Assembly: GCA_029204225.1 (NCBI GenBank)
Contig: CM055092.1
Location: 26,372,122 to 26,436,121, forward strand
DNA length: 64,000 nucleotides
Source of the DNA: Diphasiastrum complanatum
Lineage: Eukaryota; Streptophyta; Lycopodiopsida; Lycopodiales; Lycopodiaceae
Direction of reading: 5' to 3'
The position numbers and the translations under genes were made by a program. Below are positions 12,401-28,000 of the stretch, in pieces; within the stretch, counting starts at the first letter, position 1; each line of letters starts with the position of its first letter. The notes under the pieces were generated by a model, which saw only the letters and a program-made list of their open reading frames with translations, ran no database searches and was not told the DNA's origin.

Positions 12401-15400
12401 ACATCGCACAAAAACACAGCTTGCTGTCCAGAGATGGAGTTTTACGAGGGAAAAGGTTCCAATAAAAAAGGGTTTGTTTCTAGCTTGAGTCTGAGCAATT
12501 TTGTTGGAACCCCCAGCAGGATTATTATGACCTGCTTTGAGTAGGTTTTCGGCAGTTTTTAAGCCATTTTCAGGAAAACCAGCCTCTTGTAGCCTCTCCA
12601 CGTCATTGTTTTTAGTTTTTTTTTAAACATTTCCCTCAATATGTGTTGTGGGAAATGATCGTTTCCTTGATGGGAAACGTGTTCCCAGGCTCGTTTCCCA
12701 GGTTTGGGCAAACGAGGCATGCTGGGAGATGTGCCATGTTTGACGGTTTAGGAAAGCAGCCTCCACATTTTTTGAATGGAGTAGGGTTTATTCCTTACCC
12801 TACATGAGGGAATTATTCACCTTCTAGATTACATAAAACATTCCCAATGTAGCATGCAGGTTCACGACTCCTCTCCATTTGTAGAGACTAAGAGTTAGAT
12901 CCTACTTATTTCACATAGACATACAAGCTAAAATCCAAATCATAACACTTTATAAGAAGAATCGTCATGCAGCGTGTCAATAATTTTAATCATATGCCTC
13001 ATCATCATCTACCTACCAAAGATGTAAGCAACAAATATTTTGATGAAGATGTTATGACCAGTCTCCATTCACCATAGCCATGAGCCTACATGTTCCAACC
13101 CTTTAGTGTCATCATCCGAGTAGGTAGAATGGTTGCCACAAGTTGTGCCCTTTCAAATATGATCTATTGCCACCTTAACACTAGTAGTAATAATCATGTA
13201 GAAAGTTGAGAACCTACTATAGAATTAACAATCTTGGCAATCATATAAGTGATGCTCTATCCTAGCAGAAAGTGAGGAAATCATGACTCCTTGTTCTGAT
13301 ATTTATAAGCATTCAATCTGCTGTAGTGGAGTTAAGTTAGTGCTTTAGTACCAAGGCTATGACTTTAAGTTGATCACTTGCAAATGAAATAACTCGCAAG
13401 GGAATGTGTGGGATTTGAGGAAGGGGGAAGAAGAATATAGACAATATGTTAACAGACTAGGAGTGTTAGTTAGAAGTAATTGATGATGGTCATACAACAG
13501 ACAAAGTCACTCGAAACCTATCGTATGAACCGAGAATGACATATGGAAATAGCTTGAAAGCTACATCTCGAGACAAAAAATTAGAGCAAGATTGCCTTCT
13601 AAAACGAACAATGTGTCTCTACATAGTGAAGCTCGCTAAATTGGAGCTGCATGAAAAGGCATGTAAGTTCATTATATTATCCTCAGAAAAATTAGCGCTG
13701 ATAAAAAACCACGAAAATTGTTGCCTAGAAAAAAAGTAAAGTATTGTGTAAGAGCCCTTGTATCACTACGGAGTCTAGATTGACAACATGATGATGTGAC
13801 CTCTATGTGTTTCTACATGTACCTTGTATATCATAGCCAAAGAATTATCTAACAATGTGCATATGATAATGGATGACATTCTAGTAAAGTCAATTAAGGT
13901 GGCGTATACACACATCAATATATGCATGCATGCAACATGCATGGACTAGTACTTGCACATGTAAACGGAAATTGAAGTAAGCATTTGAGTCTGCCGAGTT
14001 TGGAATAAAACCATTCTCGATTAGAAATGCATTGATCTTCTGAAAGCAGACTCTTGGTGACTGTTTCAGACCATACAGAGCCTTGTGGATTTTGCATGCT
14101 AGGTGCTCCTTGCCCCTGAGGTCGTATCCCTCTGGCTGCGACATATAGATCTCCTCTTGGATAGTCCCGTTGAGGAAGGCAGTCTGGACATCCATTTGGT
14201 GGACTTCGAGATCGGCTGTAGCTGCAAAGGAGAGTAGTAGACGAATCGAAGCATGCTTAACGACAGGGATGGAGGCTGTCTGGATCGGTTCGATCTTCCG
14301 GGTTGAACTTCGATCCTCTGATGTGGTTCGATTTGTCGAGGGTCTGTCTCTTGTGGAAGTAGTTTGCATAGGGCCACAAATGTCGCTATGTACAAGATCA
14401 AGCAAACCTTTGGAAGTATGAACTGAATTAGAAATAAAAGGACTTCTAGCATGCTTGCTGATAATACAACTTTCACATGGAGAAGTTGGTTTACTGACAG
14501 AAGGAAGATCTTGCACTAGATTTTGAGTCGACATTTGCTGAATACTATTGAAGTTTAGATGGCCTAATTTGAAATGCCAAAGCATATCAGTCGATTCAAA
14601 AGTGGATGAATGAAGAGCTTGACTATTTGTCAAATAGCAGTGACTAAGCTTGTAAAGATAGCCACATCGTCTATCGAAAGCTAAAACTTTCCTAGACGTA
14701 TCGAGTATTGTGCAGCCCTCTGTATCGAATTCAACCATTCGATCAAAATCAGTGATTTGGCTTATTGAAAGCAGATTCTTGGTAAGGTTGGGAACATGAA
14801 GAACGTTGGACAACAACTTTACATCACCTTTTTGAAACTCGAATTTGATTCCTTCACCTTTGATAGAATGAGATGAGTTGTCTCCAAGTTGTACAACTCT
14901 TGAATCAGTGAGTGGCTTGTAGCATTGGAACCAGTCTCGATGGTGAGTCATATGTTGAGTTGCTCCTGAGTTCAAGTACCAGGAGTCGATATCCTGATGT
15001 TTTCCAACCTTGGTCATAAAGGCAGCTTCATCTTCCTCATGTTGCTGGATCGAGTGATTGGTTGTAACAGTATTGGCTTGCTGTTGGAACTGCTTCTTCT
15101 TCTCGTTGTGGTACTTCAAAGTTCGGCAGTCCTTGATGAGATGACCAGTCCTCTTACAATATTTACAGAATAGCTTTTGTCTTTGCTGAAATGATGAAGG
15201 CTCTGAAGTTGATGCTTCATTTGGTACATGCTGCTGCATTTTGCTCTTCCTGTTAGGATAATCTGACTGTGTAGATCTCTTGGATCTGAACTTTTGATTT
15301 CTTTTGGAATATAGTGCTTGAGGATCCGATCCTGAGCCAAAGGAGGATGCAGCTCTTCTGATCTCCTCTTGTAGTAGCATCGAAAAATTGCTTCTCTTCG

Positions 15401-18400
15401 TGCTGCGCTTAGTGCTTTGCAGAGGGACATCATCCCTAATATCTCCCGTGCTGTTAAGGATACTAAGGCATCCATGAGTAAGCTTCCCCTACTTGAGCGC
15501 CAGATACATGACACTGTTGAGTGCACTGCCTGGATTCCTATTCTTGAACAACGGCTTCATGAGACGGTGGAACATGTACAGAAAGTACCTACTCTCGAGC
15601 AAGAAGTACGTGAGACCAAATCATGGGCTTCTACCCTGAGATCATCTACCACCTCTTCGTCTTCTGTAGCACCCTCCTTAGACACCACGGTACAAGGCGT
15701 CTTGGCAGAACAACAACGTCGGGATGACAAAAAGCTCAACTTAAGATTCCGAGGTCTTCCTACTGAGGGCACAGCACTGGACCAGGTTACCTCTTTGTTT
15801 ACTTCACGCAAGGGGCTCTCAGTTCCAGGTATCCACCAGTATGCTTGGCGCCTCTAGCATGAAACGAAGGTATTATTTGTCAAATTCAAAACTATGGACG
15901 ACCGGCAGACAATTCTTCGTGCGCGTCGTACTCTCCGAGGCTCTCAGATTTACCAAATACAATAGAATCTAATCAATTGTACAATATTACATTTTAATCT
16001 TACGTAGATTATATTTGATTTAGATGATGACCTTACTCACTGCCAATGGTTACAGCGTAAAACTATTATTCAGGAGGCAAGGACAAAACAACAGCGGGTG
16101 GTATTTACAAATGGCAACCCTCGCTTTTTCTCCAAGCGTCAATAGGAAGTTTGGGTACTCGGGCATGGGAGCAGCCCGATAGCCCCAGCTAGAATCACAT
16201 TCGGTTTTTGGAATTGCGGCAGCCTCTCCACCTCTTCTACAGTGGCTGACCTTGACACCTATCTATGTTCGGCTGATTTTCTACTTTTTGCAGAGACATA
16301 TGAGTCTTCCACACACCCACTTCCGTGGATTTCTGCTCCACGACCTATGCTACAGGGCAGGATACTTCGGGCCTCTGGTGGAGTTGCATGTTTGTACAGG
16401 TCGGTGTATACTCCTTCTATTTGGTTGTATACTACTTATGGCCGTTACTTGTCGCTTCAGATTACGGCATCCTTCTTGGGGCTGGATCAGGACTTGTTTG
16501 TTGCAGTGTGCTACTTTGCTCCCAACACTTCAGTGTTTATGGATTTGGGAGGTGATCCTTTTCAGGCCCTTTCTGACGGTGTTGCTAGACTCTCTCTACA
16601 GGGTTACATATTGCTTGCAGGGGACTTTTAACGCACGCACAACCGCTCGCCAAACTGAGTTCTATGCTGACACACTCTCTCTTCATCCGTTGGATACCTC
16701 TTATGCCCGTTATTCTCAGGACTCATCAGCCACAGTTACTCTTTGTGGGGAACAACTTCTGAGGTTGGCTCAAGCGGTCTCATTATCCTCAATGGTCTTC
16801 TTCAATGGCCATCCTCCTCTGCATATACTTGCCACCCATTTGGTGGCGGTCACAGAGTAGTGGACTATTTCATTGCATCTCTTGCTTTATTGCCCCGCCT
16901 GGCATCCTTCACCATCGGTACCCCCATCCTCGCTGATCACTCTCTGCTCTACCTCTCCTTCTCCCTAGTGCCAAGTCCGCCTTCTCCTCCACCTTCCCTC
17001 TTTGTTCGACCCACCCGCTATCGTATACCTCCTCATCAATCCCAGGCCTATGTTGCCCACATCTCTCGTCTTCTGGACCACTTTCCTTCCTCCTCTAATG
17101 TCACTACCCAAGCCTCCTTTTTAACACACGCCCTGACTACTGCCGCTCATGCCATTACACCCCCTCGCCGCTTCTCTTCTCATCGTCGTACCCATAATAA
17201 ATGGTATGACAACGACTGTTCTTTCTTCTAGAAATATGTCGAGTTCCTCAAATTCTCCAATTCTACACTGTCTTCTTCCGCAGAAAAGCAGCTTCGTTCC
17301 CTTCTCCGCAAAAAGAAAGTGGCCTACTTTTCTTCCCGTTCCTCCTACCTCCTTCGCTCCCTCCACTCTGCTTCCTCGGCTACTTTTTGGAAGATCTTTC
17401 TTCATAAGCCCCTATCCATTGCACCCATCCCTCTTCAATCTTGGGTCGACTATGCAACCAACCTATATACAACTGCTCACCCTTCCATCTCTCTTTCTTC
17501 TCGTCCTACCCACTGTGACCTCTTTTCTCCTGACATGGTTGAAGCCACCAGAACAATCGTACGTCTGACATTGACCTCCTTTCAGCCGAGTTCCTCAAAC
17601 CAATTGCCAAACTCGCCTCCCCTTTCCTGGCCCGCTGTTTCAACCGCTCTGTCGTTGATGGTTTCCCCATACCTTGGGCCACCAATCTCCTTCATCCCAT
17701 TCTTAAAGCAGGTGATGCCATGAATGTCCACAACTATCGCACTATTATGATTGGTCATACCATGGCCAAGTTGTACGCCACTATTCTCCAGAACTTCGTT
17801 ACGGCAGAGGCTGATTCTCGACTATTATATGCGACTGGCCAAGCTGGCTTCCGCCGGGGTTATAGCACTCTTGATCATGTCCTCACTCTACGTACTATCA
17901 TTGAGTAGGCAAAGCATATGGGCAAGAAGGTATTTGCTTGTTTCGTTGATCTCTCTAAGGCCTTTGATACTGTTCCCCGTCATCTTTTGATTAGCAGACT
18001 ACGTTAGCTTGGCTTTTCCGACTCTATTCTTGCGGCAATGGTTGCTCTGTATGAGAGAGTTCTAGCACGTATTCGGCTGCGTACAGATTTGTCTTCTCCC
18101 ATCCGTAGCATTGTTGGCGTCAAGCAAGGCTGTCCACTATCCCCTCCGCTCTTTGCACTTTATATTGATGATCTTGAGTGCCTCATTCGTGAAGAAGGTG
18201 GAGATGGTTGCCCGCTGGCTCATTTGCTCATCCCCATTCTGCTTTATGCTGATGACATTGTCCTGCTTTCTTCCTCACCAGAAGGGTTGCAGTGTCACTT
18301 ACAGGTCTTACATCGGTTTTGTGTTGCTTGGGGTCTCTGTTAACTTAAAAAAGATGAAGATCATGATTTTTAACACCAATCGACAAAGCCTTCACAATTA

Positions 18401-19889: not shown

Positions 19890-19941
<52 letters not shown>

Positions 19942-22900
19942 CGCTCTGCTGGTGCGCTGTCCGCCTGCTGGTGCGCTGCCCGCCCTGCTGGTGCGCTATC
20001 CCTCCCTCGCTACCCCTGCCCCTCTCTCTCTCTCTCGCCGCTCTGCTGGTGCGCTGCCCGCCTGCTGGTGCGCTGCCCGCCCTGCTGGTGCGCTGCCCGC
20101 CCTGCTAGCGCTGCTGCCCTCTCTCTCTCTTGCGCGCCCACCCGCCCTGCTGGCGCTGCTGTCCGCCCTGCTGGCGCTGCAGTGCTGACCTTCGCACCTG
20201 CCCTACGCTGCCCTGCGCTGGTCTGCGCTACTGCGCTGCTACGCCTGGCCGTTTGTCTACACTGTCCTCCATCTGCTTACCGCCTCCTATGGCACCTAAG
20301 AAAAAGGGGGGTGTTCTTACACCCCCCTCCCTGTTGGACACCCCCCCATCACCGGTAGTGATGGAGGAGCCGTCTTCGGTGACAGAAACTAGTGACATTC
20401 CTGTCAACATGGCTGCCATTGACTACACTCCTTCCAAACCTACCGAAAGTCTTTTTGCTTATGATCTTAGTTTTATCCGACAAGAAATTCTTGGACTTAA
20501 GAAACAACTACACCTCTTTGAAGCTGAAAATAGCAAGTTAGCTAAGGATCTTTTTGGTGTCACGGAACGTGTGGAGCAGCTTGAGCAAGAAAATATATAT
20601 CTTAAGCAACGAATTGCAGAAAAAAGTGCCTTGGAGGAGACTTCCAACAAGATCAATAGCTTGGAGAAACAAGTCGAGGAGACGAAAACGTGGGCAGCAC
20701 TCTTCAAACCGGATGATATGGGCAGCAAACTCTCATCACTTGCAAAACAGGTTGAAGAAACGACATCGATCCTTAAGCAAGGTAATCACTCTCAGATTTC
20801 ATCTTTTCCGAAGGAAAACGATTTGGAGACAGTTTTGGGTGAACAAGCCAGAAGGGCCAAAAAAGCCTTTAACATTAGAGTAAGAGGCATTGCCAATGGT
20901 GGAAAACCGTTGGAAGAAGCTACGGATTTGCTCATTTCCAAGTTATCTCATGTGGCTGATGGTTTTGATACTGCTTGGCGTAGTAAATTTGATGACAATG
21001 TTTTGTTTATCAAGTTCCGCTCGCTTTCACAACGCAATGCTGCCCTTCGGCTTAGGGCAAAGCTTAAAGGTACTTTCATTTATATGGATGATGACTTAAC
21101 AAATACTCAATGGTTGGCAAGAAAAAAGATTATCCTTGAAGCGAAAGAGAAAGGGCAAAGGGTTGTTTTTATTGACGGGAAACCGAGATTTTTCGACCTT
21201 CCACAATAGGAACTAGGGGCCCCCGGATATAGAAGCTACCCGAGATCCCCTACCAATTTGAGACTTGGCTTCTGGAATTGTAATGGTTTTTTATCTTCGT
21301 CATCAGCCGGAGACTTTGCTGATTTTATTAGAAAATGCGACATTTTGTTGTTGGCTGAAACTCATGAGTCCTTATATCATCCTCTTCCAAATATACAGGA
21401 GTACTCTTGGCATTCTGCTTTTCGTCCATTTGTTAGGGGAAAAACTTGTCGAGGATCTGGAGGAGTAGCTTGTTTATACAGAGACACCACAGTTCAGATG
21501 GTTAAACAAGATCCATACGCTCGCTATATTTGGTTACACATTATTGGCTCACTATTGGGATTACCTCAGGACATCTATATAGCTGTATGCTATTTTGCTC
21601 CACAGACCTCAGTGTTTGCTGAGTTTGGCGGGGACCCTTTTCAGGCTCTCTCAGATGATATTGCTATCTTTTCTCAGCAGGGTTCCATTTTACTAGCAGG
21701 TGATTTCAACGCCCGCACAAGCTCTAGACAAACCGAATTTCATGCAGCTACGGATCTTCTCAGGCTTTACCCTTTGGATATGGGGCTAGACCGGGTATCA
21801 CAGGATGCAGACACTCCAGCTACATCTTTCGGGGAGTAGTTGATCACTCTAGCAGAGACACACGCTCTTGCCATTTTGAATGGCCTCACACAGTGGCCTT
21901 CCTCATCAGCATATACATGCTATCCTCATGGTGGAGGACATAGTGTGGTCGACTACTTCATTGGATCACCTGCTTTGATCTCTCACATTTCTGATTTCTC
22001 CATTACACCCCCTACCATTTCCGATCACTCACTCTTACACATCTCACTTGGTCACATAACCTCTTCTTTGCAAGTTTCTTGCTCTCTTCCCACTCATAAA
22101 CGTATTCCTTTCACCCAATCTGGATTCACTAATTACACCACAATCTTATCCCAACTACTCGCTAACTTCCCGTTCATGGCACCAATTGACCAGCAAGCCA
22201 CTTTTCTCTCTACATCCCTCTTAGCTGCTGCCTCCTCATCCTTCCCCACCAAAACGACATCATCTCACAGAAGTGTTCACAACAGATGGTATGATGCAGA
22301 ATGCCGCTCTCTTCACAATCATGTGACATATGCCAGGTCACACTCCCCTGCCACACTCAAACAATGCCAGAAAGAATATCATAGAACCACCAGAACAAAG
22401 AAGATCAAGTACCTACAATCACTCTGCCAAAAAATGATCAACTCTTTAGATTCACCCTCCTCCTCTTTTTTCTGGAAACATTTCACCAGACACTCTTCAA
22501 CATTGGCCCCCATAGCCATCGAATCCTGGATCGAGTATGCCACGAAGTTATATACCACGGACTCTCCTCCTACCTCACTCTCACCGAGACCTGATCACTG
22601 CTCACTTTTCACCCCTGACATGGTTGAAAACGCCATTAAACATGCCAAACTAAATAAAGCCACTGACTATGACTCCTTAAGTGTAGACTTCCTAAAGCCC
22701 GTAGCACATCTCATCTCCCCTTACATTGCTCATGTTTTTAACACAGCTGTTACTTCTGGTTTTCCTACGGCTTGGTGTACTAATATCCTTCACCCCATCC
22801 TCAAGGCAGGTGATCCCATGAATGGAGGAAACTACCGCACCATTATGATTGGCCACACTCTGGCTAAGATATATGGCTCTATACTACAGACAGTCACTGG

Positions 22901-24998
22901 ATCTTTTGCTGAAACTGAGGGTTTACACGCTATGGGTCAAGCTGGTTTCAGACCGGGATATTCTACTTCAGACCAGATCTTCATTTTGAGATGCATTATT
23001 GAGGAGGCTCGACATCGGAAACAGAGAATTTACTGTTGCTTTGTGGATTTTCGCAAAGCTTTTGACTCTGTTCCACGACATCTTCTTTTCCAGAGACTGT
23101 CTTCACTTGGCTTTTCAGAGGATACTATTGCTGCGATCATTACTTTATATGAGCGAGTCTTGGCACGTTTCAGAGATGGTAGTGGCTGGTCCTCACAGAT
23201 ACATTCTACCATTGGGGTGAAGCAGGGTTGCCCCTTATCACCCACTCTTTTTGCACTATATATAGATGACCTCGAGCGGATTATTCGCGAGGAAGGTGGA
23301 GAGGGCTGTCCCCTAGCAGACATTATTATCCCCATTCTCTTGTACGCTGATGATGTGGTTCTCCTCTCATCCTCTGCAGCTGGTTTACAGAGTCACCTTT
23401 CTGCTTTACATCACTTTTGCCAGCGTTGGGGATTGACGGTTAACCTTAAGAAGACTAAGATTATGGTGTTTAACACCAACAGACAGCATATGAGAGATGT
23501 GATTTTCTATTATGACGGGCTACCGATTGAGATCGTGACCTCCTACACCTATTTGGGAGTTCTTTTCTCTGGTCCGCTACTCACTTTTCGACCAGCAGCC
23601 ACCGCCAGGCTCCGCAAGGGGCATACCGCTCTTGTGCATATGGAGAGATTTTGCTCTACTTATTATGTGCAGGATCCTGCTACCAGATGCCTACTATTTT
23701 CTGCTACTGTCTCCCCAGTTGTGCTATATTCGGCTGAGACTTGGTGCCCTGATTTATCACGCGATACATGGAGAGATCTTACTCGTATCCAGATTCTCAT
23801 GCTCAGTAGGATAATCCGGGCTAAGCCCTCAGTACCACATGATATCATACTAGCCGAGTTTGCTTCTCCTCCATTAGTTGTTGGTGCTATGTTTCAGATC
23901 ATCACCTTTCTTCACAGGGTATCAGATCTAGATACCTCCAGATACATTGTTGCTGCTCTCACTTCATCTTGTACCATTGCGGATCAGGGAGCCAAGCACT
24001 CTTGGTATCGCAGTGTCTCAGCCCTTCTTCAGACTTGGGGTTTATCCGCACTTGATCTTCCGAATGGAACCCATGCTTATATCAGACAGCAGATGTACCG
24101 GAGCTACATACGCACTATATGGTCACATCCTGATCCAGATAGGGTCAAGCTACATTATTATGGCACACATCTTTTACGGCTGGACGTTTCGGGCTTGCCT
24201 ATTCTTCCAGTTTATCTTACACAGACGCTATCTTTTGGTCTGAGATATCGTATAGGACAGCTTCGAGTCTCTTCTCATCAGCTTGCTATCGAGACAGGTA
24301 GATACGCAGACACTCCCAGATTGCAGCGGATATGTCAGCTTTGTTCTCTTCAGGAGGTGGAAGATGAGTTTCATTTCATCTTTCGCTGCCCAGTATACTA
24401 TGAGATTAGAGGACGATACCATTGTTTATACCGAGATATTCCCCTCACGTTGAGCTCCTTCCTCGAGTATCCAGACGCTAGATGTGTGGGTCTTCTTTTG
24501 AGAGAGATGTATATTTTACGAGCTTCACTTCTACCTACGCTCTCAGATATGGATTCCAGTCAGGCTCACATTACTCAGTTCTTCCAGAAGCGAGACAGAG
24601 TGGATATTTCGGTTGCGTATTTTGACGTCCCCGTCCGAAGATCGAAGACACAGAGAGTTTCGGCTCGATCCAGTGCTACTAGATCTTCATACGCCTCCCA
24701 CCAGCCTACATCACGACCCACTACTACCATCACTCATTACTTTCGGCTTGCTCGTAGCTAGTTTCCTCCGCAGAGCAGGTGGTTAAGCTCTTGCTTTGTA
24801 CCCTCACCAGCTGGTGGTCAAGCTTGGATACTTTTTCTCTTAGAGACAGAGAGATCGATATTTTAGTTTTAGTTTTACTGTCTTTTCATTGGTAAATAAG
24901 TCCTTATGCGGACAATGCTTCTCACATTTTGTACTCTCTTTTGTCTTATGTGCCCCTGGGCACCAAAAGACGTTAATAATAATTCTAATTCTAATTCT

Positions 24999-25092
<94 letters not shown>

Positions 25093-28000
25093 GGCCAGCG
25101 CCAGGGATGGCAGATGCTCTGCTGTGGGCGCCCTCCATCGCTGCCTCGCTGGGCCTCCATCGCTGCTTTTCTACCCTGAGTTGCTGGCCCTCCATCGCTA
25201 CTCTACCCTGTTGTTGCGGATTTGCTCCATCGCTACCCATCGCGACTGCTCCATCGCTGTCCAATGCTGGTGACCTGCCGTTGCAGGTGTGCCCTTGCTA
25301 TTGCTGATCTTCTGCAGGTTTGAGCGCCCTCTTCCATCGCAATAAGATATGCCGCATCGCAAAGGAGCCGTTGCCTCTACTCCTGAACCATCCTCTGTTT
25401 CTAGAATGGCTTCAACATCTTCCTTACAGCCAAATCCGCCTACCCCTTCTCCTTCTATGCATGTCGCAGTTCCTATCTCCCCATCAAACCCTATTCTTGA
25501 TAATAGTGCAACTATTGTAGCTATTCCCTTGACTCCAGACACTCCAGTAGCACCTGTTTCTTTCCCTCCATATGCCTTGGTCAAACTTCTTCGGGATGGT
25601 CAACTCCGTCTATTTGAATTCCTTAACAATCACAGAGAGCAACTGGCTTCTCATGATTCTTTGCTTCTAGGGGTGCAATCGCATCTTCAGAAGTTGGATA
25701 CTTCCATTCAAGAACTCAAGAACGAAGTTGCAGTTATAAAAAGTGAAGCTTCTTCTCAAATCGCTACTTCAGCTAAAATCCAGCATCTCGAAAATAAGGT
25801 GGAACAGCACCATACGACTGTCCAGTCATGGGCAGATGTGCTTAAAGGTTCGTCTACAATTATCTCTCCACCTTTGCCTTCACCTTCGTTTATCTCAGCC
25901 ACTGAGAGCCGTCTGCGAGAACATAAAGCTCTCAATGTTCGTGTTAGAGGTATTCCGAAGTCTCAAAATGCTGTCAAAGAAGCTGAGAAGTTTTTGGAAG
26001 GAAATCTTCAACAGATAAATTATGCTCCTAAGCTTAATACAATTGACTCTCTTTCCATTTCTCTTTCCCCACGCCCTTCAGAATTCACCCTCACCCCGTC
26101 CATGGTTGAAAACGCCATCCAAAAGATCAAACCCGAAAAGCCACTGATGTTGAGCTCCTAAGTATGGACTTCCTAAAACCAATTACTACACAAAGACTTT
26201 CAGTCCAATTGTAAGACTTCAGTCAATTCGATCTTTACTTGCTATCGCAACTACTGAAGATGTAGAAGTTCACCGGATGGATACAAGAAGATATTTACAT
26301 CTATCAACTTGAAGGTTACGTCCTTCTGCAAAAAGCTCTCTACGGGCTAAAGCAAGCTCCAAGGGCAGAATCAATCAATTTTTGTTGCAGCACGACTTCA
26401 TCCCTAACTCTCTTGACTCTCATGTTTATCTCAAACACAAGGGCTCAAGCTATCTTATAATAGCTCTATATGTTGATGACTCTCTGATCATCAGCAATTC
26501 GATTCAATTGCTGCATGAGACAAAGTTGTTATCGTCGAAGGAATTCAAAATGACCGATTTAGGCCCTGTGCATTACCTTCTCGGGATCGAGATAACCAGA
26601 GACAGAGCAAATAGAAGGATCGCGATAAGCCAAGAAAAGTATCTAACCAGTGTAATTTATAGGTATGGCATGGAAAACTGCAAGTCGACATACTCGCCTA
26701 TGGATCTAGGATTCAAACTATCGAAGGACATGTGTTCGCCTTGGACTGAAGCAGAGAAGAAGGAGATGTGCAAATACTCCTATCAGTCGATAGTCGTATC
26801 GATCATGTATGCCATGGTCTGCACTCGACCTGATCTAGCCTATACAGTCAACACACTGTCACAATTTATGTCGAATCCCGGCCTACCTCACTGGAAAGCT
26901 CTACTTAAAGCACTAAGATACATTCAAGCTACTAAGCACTATGCTCTGTGTTATAATGGAAATACAGAGGACGCTCTGACATTACTTGCTTATTCCGACT
27001 TTGATCGGGCTGAAGGTGTGGAAACACGAAAATCCACTTCTGGCTATCTATGCTTTCTAGCAAGAGAACCCATTTCATGGAATAGTCGAAAGCAGAAATT
27101 TATTTCTTTGTCTTCCACAGAGTCTGAATGTGTCGCAGCCACCTCTGCATTGAAGCAAATCATCTGGCTCAGAAGATTGCTCCATGATCTTATGATCCCT
27201 CAATTCAGACCAACTATACTCTATTGCAACAATCAGAGCTGCATGGCTCTATCTCAAAACCCACGAACTCACTCTAGAACTAAACACATTGAAGTTCAAT
27301 TTCATTTTCTGAGAGAAAGTTTTGAACAAGGTTGTCGAATTAAATTACTGTCCGACTGACAGTATGTTGGCTGATATTTTGACTAAGCCTCTGTCGAGGG
27401 AAAAGTATGTTGGGTTATGCAGCTTGCTAAAGTTTATTCAGGATCCTAGGAGTTAAGCTTAAGGGGAGTGTTGGAGTTAATTTTCACTCCGACTTACCCG
27501 AATTCATTTCCTGAGAACCAGTATACTATGTAAATATTCTCTCTCTACAATAGCATGCAGTCTTACTCGCACAAGTCCAATAGCCTATGCAATACATCGA
27601 CTTGAAGCAGAAGCAGGATCGACTTCATCGATGTCTACGTCTACGTCATCGACTTCACCGACTCGACTTCGTCGACATCCTGACATCAACTCCATTGACA
27701 TCTTCTCTAGGGCGAACCAGTCGACTCGACTTGTCTGACATCTTCGATGATTGTCGACTATCACTAGTCAAAATGGAGCTCTTCCTCTGCCTTGTCCGAC
27801 GTAGTCTACGTCACAGTTCATTTCAGTACTTTGCACTAACTACACTACTTCACGCTCGTTGCTCACACAATTGTTATAACTGACGCATGTATATATTCAT
27901 AACGGCAACAGATAGAACAAATAAAATAACATGAGATAGTATTCAATCTGTAACTAGCATAGTAAGATCACACCACTTAGTGCACTATTACTGTGAACCA

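Follow-up and report, generated by a model that had tools for sequence, protein, structure and literature searches.

How a LINE makes its second protein is an old and open question, and the few known answers differ from lineage to lineage. The question is raised anew by a stretch of 64,000 nt from Diphasiastrum complanatum (assembly GCA_029204225.1, contig CM055092.1, positions 26,372,122 to 26,436,121 of the forward strand; hereafter, the window), which between ~15.4 and 26.2 kb carries three LINE pieces in head-to-tail order. A preliminary description of this DNA proposed that in two elements, LINE-A and LINE-B, ORF2 is made as an ORF1-ORF2 fusion by suppression of the UAG that ends ORF1. 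Here, we consider this proposal in the light of further copies sought in the one 1.745 Gb genome.

The ORF1-ORF2 junctions in the window

At the LINE-B junction, the TAG at 21207-21209 and ORF2 do lie in one frame, as described, which is open from 21210 to the LGFWNC motif of the endonuclease. The same holds for LINE-A, where ORF2 continues in frame behind the TAG at 16143-16145 to FGFWNC. Re-reading of the coordinates likewise bore out the CAA-TAG-GAA context common to the two stops and the distance of 18 codons from TAG to (L/F)GFWNC in both elements, equal to 57 nt to GFWNC. The statement that neither linker contains an ATG proved correct as to frame and incorrect to the letter for LINE-A, which has an out-of-frame ATG at 16165. 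The first in-frame ATG of LINE-B ORF2 is indeed located deep in the endonuclease (21498, codon 97); that of LINE-A is codon 68. ORF1 of the LINE-A copy in the window is broken by a stop at 15855-15857. The coordinates of all features are collected in Table 1.

Table 1. LINE features in the window and the basis of their assignment.
Feature	Coordinates	Strand	Basis
LINE-A UAG, homologous to the LINE-B stop	16143..16145	+	kept in 30/30 copies
LINE-A 19-codon linker, predicted hairpin at 16148-16190	16146..16202	+	energy rank 1 of 1299 windows, z rank 8
LINE-B element (5' UTR, ORF1, ORF2, 3' UTR)	19941..25005	+	ends set by eye at flanking (TC)n arrays
LINE-B ORF1, 306 aa, ATG at 20289, ends ...Q-UAG	20289..21209	+	ORF reading
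LINE-B CAA-UAG-G, core of proposed leaky stop	21204..21210	+	identical in 30/30 LINE-B copies; same core in LINE-A, D and E
LINE-B 19-codon in-frame linker, overlaps proposed RNA signal	21210..21266	+	pS 0.58 vs 0.91 in endonuclease, LINE-B v LINE-A
LINE-B predicted stem-loop, spaced 4 nt from UAG; outer arms 21214-21219 / 21247-21252	21214..21252	+	folding; weaker in young LINE-B than in other families
Frame of LINE-B ORF2 with endonuclease and reverse transcriptase; a private TAG interrupts it in the window copy	21210..24761	+	Pfam PF03372, PF00078; PDB matches
First in-frame ATG of LINE-B ORF2, codon 97, well within endonuclease	21498..21500	+	Pfam endonuclease match from residue 22
Second TAG, inside ORF2, private to the LINE-B copy in the window	21837..21839	+	CAG in 29/29 other copies
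LINE-C ORF1 fragment joined at ~26020 to a LINE-E type ORF2 piece	25346..26190	+	sequence searches

ORF2 of LINE-B matched the Pfam families PF03372 (Exo_endo_phos, E 1.4e-12) and PF00078 (RVT_1, E 1.3e-33), its best PDB chains by sequence being an R2 protein (1.9e-23) and human LINE-1 ORF2p (1.1e-21). By these predicted endonuclease and reverse transcriptase (RT) domains, the LINE-B family classes as an APE-type, L1-like LINE. L1-type ORF1 proteins combine a coiled coil with an RRM and a C-terminal domain. For the ORF1 found here, no Pfam family was found at E 0.01, coiled-coil matches being weak and appearing only when E was allowed to reach 10, and a PDB search returned no match below E 0.1; the AlphaFold2 model is poor (mean pLDDT 56) and shows a helix at 60-136, a putative coiled coil, ahead of a poorly modelled C-terminal part. 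No Rfam family reached its gathering score between 15300 and 25300. The second TAG, inside ORF2 and the next stop in this frame after 21207-21209, was ruled out as another leaky stop, all 29 other LINE-B copies having CAG at this position.

Survey of junctions in four LINE families

The preliminary description proposed to test whether the TAG is kept across genomic copies. In this very abundant group of LINEs, 106 of the 111 junctions that were read have UAG, a recurrence beyond chance that extends over the four families LINE-A, B, D and E. The sample is biased, as it consists of top similarity matches, and copies belonging to one family lack independence (e.g., L089/L091, L095/L097 and L123/L124 are near-duplicates). 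Of the five exceptions, two are deletions and one is UAA, while two near-duplicates have AAG. The UAG is generally followed by G, as seen in 30/30 LINE-B copies, 30/30 LINE-A copies, 33/33 LINE-D copies with TAG and five of the six LINE-E copies, the sixth having A.

LINE-B is a young family. A query spanning 20850-21850 gave 1559 first-look candidates, 40 of which were scored and 30 read, including the window copy. TAG was present in all 30, as was an identical 66-nt junction. As far as these copies were read, ORF1 is open in 25, the first 689 codons of ORF2 in 21, and both in 17 of the 30. Their median pairwise identity of 99.76% indicates recent multiplication with the UAG present; since both ORFs are open in 17 copies, the TAG belongs to the multiplying form. 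LINE-A, for which 794 candidates yielded 40 scored and 30 read copies (again including the window copy), showed UAG plus the following G in 30/30 and the preceding CAA in 28/30.

To sample independently of the junction itself, we used the endonuclease motif GGNTTYTGGAAYTGC, which gave 449 matches as compared to 7 for a reversed-pattern control. Out of 100 listed among the 449, 20 were fetched, picked for differing spellings of the motif. Half of them (10/20) turned out to be LINE junctions, with UAG in eight and loss by deletion in two (L069, L084). By family, UAG was present in 5/5 older LINE-B and 2/4 LINE-A copies, the remaining junction being from LINE-D.

LINE-D is an old clan with 1463 candidates, of which 40 were scored, the other 39 being at 71-83% identity. 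A first batch had UAG in 20/21 copies and UAA in one; a second batch had UAG in 13/15 (in L126 after a 1-nt insertion) and AAG in two near-duplicates. The LINE-D linker measures 60 nt, one codon more than the 57 nt of LINE-A, B and E and thus an in-frame difference, and single LINE-D copies carry frame-breaking indels. LINE-E was reached with a query from the RT region (26025-26190 of the window; 908 candidates, 40 scored), with the junction position taken from LINE-B spacing. Six of 11 small fetched regions contain the junction and the other five do not; CAA-UAG is present in 6/6. In L130, GFWNC follows 57 nt on; four others have the same 19-codon linker, and one is cut short. Since nine of the 11 regions were placed by the L130 spacing, differently spaced LINE-E copies would escape this count. 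One LINE-E copy, L135, starts a few bases past the UAG position, at the hairpin described below; reverse transcription may have halted there and left the copy truncated at its 5' end.

Frame and spacing are thus kept as a family pattern, with indels in single decayed copies (e.g., L073, L098, L106, L126). None of the four families has, as its rule, an ORF2 in a shifted frame or a sense codon in place of the stop, AAG being confined to the two near-duplicate, decayed copies. An in-frame ATG within the linker occurs in one copy alone (L092, codon 10).

The abundant LINE-C (1416 candidates) was considered as a fifth UAG junction and rejected. Six regions were fetched, five of which were readable (L109-L112, L114), L113 being off target. 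In these five copies, ORF1 ends in ...TGA (with a broken frame in L109), and no endonuclease motif is found in the ~180 nt behind it. LINE-C without a UAG junction is a fitting contrast, albeit a single family and not a control. LINE-C, represented in the window by 25346-26010, has the appearance of a non-autonomous element that consists of ORF1 alone and is abundant; the LINE-C/LINE-E type join at ~26020 in the window represents a chimaera or a deletion.

Divergence between families and a predicted stem-loop

The preliminary description had also pointed to purifying selection as a means of judging its reading. Comparing LINE-B (L032) with LINE-A (L048), only 16/55 4-fold sites are identical, and the 77 endonuclease codons (20-96) ahead of the first in-frame AUG of LINE-B give a pS of 0.91 and a pN of 0.34; for the endonuclease codons of LINE-B versus LINE-D (L107), pS is 0.94 and pN 0.32. 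By these divergences, synonymous change between families has reached saturation, yet the CAA-UAG-G core persists. With pN far below the saturated pS, these codons are under purifying selection as protein, although no in-frame AUG could start them, an outcome in favour of the fusion reading.

The linker itself differs in its pattern of change. Its pS is below that of the endonuclease (0.58 versus 0.91 for LINE-B/A, 0.75 versus 0.94 for LINE-B/D), and its third positions are identical at 11/19, 11/19 and 10/19 for E/B, E/A and B/A, as compared to 10/25, 11/25 and 5/25 in the endonuclease, a comparison that covers the three pairs of equal linker length. Lower synonymous divergence and higher third-position identity together fit an RNA signal overlapping the linker. 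A counter-case comes from within LINE-D (L107 versus L098), where linker pS exceeds that of the endonuclease, 0.64 versus 0.29, on 14 codons. The variation among LINE-D copies has a clear codon periodicity in the end of ORF1 and in the endonuclease, which is absent in the linker. In the LINE-D alignment (27/36 copies), the most conserved 17-column stretch runs from the CAA-UAG-G core through the 3' GGGG, at 0.93 versus 0.77-0.86 elsewhere. Junction identity between LINE-A and LINE-B is just moderately high (rank 22 of 223 windows), and the absence of any TAG change among 29 copies of LINE-A does not reach significance (0/87 against 2.2% per site).

For LINE-A, a hairpin after the stop had been claimed, and its arms are located at 16160-16164 and 16174-16178 as given. 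The other three families have counterparts: a GC-rich stem is predicted to begin 2-6 nt after the UAG in all four, with a common shape of GGGG/CCCC outer and CGG(G)/(C)CCG-type inner pairs, the outer 3' arm of LINE-D being offset by one base. The 48-nt stretch behind the LINE-A UAG ranks first by folding energy, both in the window copy (1 of 1299) and in L040 (1 of 909), and eighth and second, respectively, by z from dinucleotide shuffles. Averaged over copies, the hairpin window comes first on both measures, energy and z (here against mononucleotide shuffles), in LINE-A (15/30 copies; 1 of 145 positions, -26.1 versus -13.4 kcal/mol for the next), in LINE-D (21 copies; 1 of 40) and in older LINE-B (five copies; 1 of 58), the latter two scans spanning just their ~650-nt stretches. 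It is weaker in young LINE-B, with ranks of 42 (energy) and 54 (z) of 660 in the copy-averaged scan, and 76 and 113 of 1475 in a second scan.

Single copies tested against dinucleotide shuffles gave z values of -4.3 for LINE-A (L048), -1.9 to -2.5 for LINE-D (L104, L092, L094) and -0.2 for an older LINE-B copy (L087). The LINE-E L130 fold, at -26.7 kcal/mol and z -2.9, was equalled by 4/200 dinucleotide shuffles. Folds of the longer 111 nt after the UAG were not significant. The stem is paired in 87% of cases over LINE-D copies (27/36) and in 91% over 17 rows of LINE-A/B/E, versus 30-65% for slid partners. Covariation was dropped as the main proof of the stem, being weak in LINE-D (27/36 copies; matched by 32/500 shuffles for pairing and 23/500 for double changes) and absent in LINE-A/B/E (17 rows; reached by 348/500 shuffles), where the stem letters hardly vary. 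A loop-downstream pseudoknot sought by eye was likewise discarded, as a 6-bp match in LINE-B had no recurrence in the other families.

Possible routes to ORF2 and neighbouring repeats

We consider it probable that ORF2 of this LINE lineage is expressed through programmed UAG readthrough, which would yield an ORF1-ORF2 fusion similar to retroviral Gag-Pol. The proposal of the preliminary description gains support from TAG, frame and spacing over four families, from the selection on codons ahead of the first in-frame ATG of LINE-B and from the predicted hairpins. Its comparison to leaky viral stops also stands up: in type III readthrough, the stop is generally UAG, followed by a G or by an octamer rich in purines and then by RNA structure of some kind, and AA before the stop stimulates readthrough, as shown in yeast (PMC3542737, in part). 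The LINEs share with this class the UAG, the 3' G and, by prediction, a 3' structure near the stop, for which a distance of ~8 nt is typical; with AA in front, G behind and a GC-rich hairpin 2-6 nt downstream, the junction resembles a type III signal. At such a site, by analogy with murine leukaemia virus, most ribosomes would terminate and release ORF1p, while a few percent would insert an amino acid, probably glutamine as in that virus, with the preceding AA, the following G and the hairpin presumably slowing release. Ribosomes that pass the UAG would translate the endonuclease-RT as an ORF1-ORF2 fusion; readthrough would set a low ratio of fusion to ORF1p, and the fusion would hold enzyme and ORF1p together on the same RNA.

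An alternative route would be termination at the UAG followed by reinitiation at a codon close by, the strategy of SART1, a silkworm LINE. SART1 relies on a downstream structure (PMC5972666, in part), and the hairpin here is likewise downstream; however, the restart site of SART1 overlaps the stop. At our junctions, no AUG overlaps or adjoins the ORF1 stop and, apart from LINE-D copy L092, none lies in frame within the linker; restart would require a non-AUG codon in frame 0, and we regard it as unlikely. UAG/G also fits the consensus of a 3' splice acceptor, and ORF2 might be translated from a spliced RNA without the stop, a possibility to which a run of five or six Ts ~14-21 nt upstream of the UAG in LINE-A, B and E lends some colour. 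Yet CAG, the commoner acceptor, occurs at 0/111 junctions, the T run codes for part of FF residues and is missing from the LINE-D copy compared, and splicing would need neither a shared open frame nor a hairpin, all of which makes it very unlikely. As for a 2A/StopGo peptide, its motif DxExNPGP was absent by eye from the LINE-A, B and E linkers, LINE-D having just PGP.

Finally, UAG, frame and hairpin might be an accident inherited from one ancestor and be functionless now, with an internal promoter, or else the codon-97 AUG, serving to express ORF2. The four families do share ancestry, and UAG and frame may therefore be partly inherited. There is also the precedent of Tca2 of Candida albicans, whose in-frame stop and predicted pseudoknot directed no readthrough in yeast, the junction containing a promoter instead (PMC2194720, in part). 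What makes such an accident very unlikely is that the CAA-UAG-G core outlasted the saturation of synonymous sites and is part of the most conserved stretch of the LINE-D junction alignment, that the protein encoded ahead of the first in-frame AUG is conserved, and that linker third positions are more conserved than those of the endonuclease in three family pairs.

Programmed readthrough as such is a known mechanism; its use by LINEs appears to be new. Among the closest likenesses is gag-pol of murine leukaemia virus, with UAG-G, structure just downstream, one frame and an RT-bearing fusion (PMC4178896, PMC3542737, both in part), where 5-10% readthrough inserts Gln (PMC4178896, in part). That virus is an LTR retrovirus with a proven pseudoknot and a spacer of 8, whereas the LINEs have a predicted stem-loop at 2-6 nt. 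Plant viruses of type III (Tombusviridae, Luteovirus/Polerovirus and the benyvirus rice stripe necrosis virus) also combine UAG-G with known or suspected 3' structure, but some of them depend on long-distance pairing (PMC3542737, in part). Soybean SIRE1 and Tca2 resemble our elements in having retroelement ORFs in one frame with a stop codon between them; both are, however, LTR elements, stop codon suppression serving an envelope-like ORF in SIRE1 and the stop being UGA in Tca2 (PMC2194720, in part).

Among LINE-type elements, human L1, SART1, L1Tc, HeT-A and TART are known for unconventional translation, none of it by UAG readthrough in the available parts of PMC5972666 and PMC5009743. According to these sources, reinitiation after a 63-nt spacer is proposed for human L1, SART1 has an overlapping stop-restart site and L1Tc a 2A sequence, HeT-A gag is said to need frameshifting, and TART is presumed to restart. 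Recoding in non-LTR elements is therefore not without precedent, given HeT-A frameshifting (PMC5009743, in part). Hebe was set aside as a precedent, its in-frame stops being single-copy defects rather than a junction (PMC2861651, in part). The accessible portions of PMC4559204 and PMC2881922 hold nothing on LINE stop-codon readthrough, nor was programmed readthrough in a LINE found among titles and abstract openings of the open-access papers listed, a scope with subscription papers mostly outside it.

We also find it reasonably likely that an entire, ancient LINE lineage of this genome, comprising no fewer than four families and including one whose near-identical copies point to recent activity, relies solely on type III UAG readthrough to make its endonuclease-RT, as an ORF1-ORF2 fusion, such that Gag-Pol-like control of stoichiometry evolved independently in a non-LTR retrotransposon. 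If so, the same ratio control as in retroviruses arose separately in a LINE. If readthrough takes place, the ORF1 and ORF2 products should be covalently joined, a link that would go some way towards explaining why the enzyme remains with its own RNA, and the junction is compact enough for direct testing in a reporter.

The surroundings of LINE-B show a further pattern. A (TC)n run was seen upstream of ORF1 in 26/30 copies (L009-L038), mostly at the element start, the run scored for the window copy being a short one inside the 5' region. TTAATA, resembling LINE 3' ends, occurs within 90 nt upstream of the run in 15 of the 26 copies, and in the window (TC)n flanks LINE-B at 19896-19940 and 25006-25090. 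This pattern points to nested head-to-tail arrays of LINEs, perhaps arising by insertion targeted into (TC)n tails. Beside the LINE array, the long frames at 13890-15488 (minus strand) and 26313-27359 (plus strand) carry motifs of what we take to be Ty1/copia pieces.
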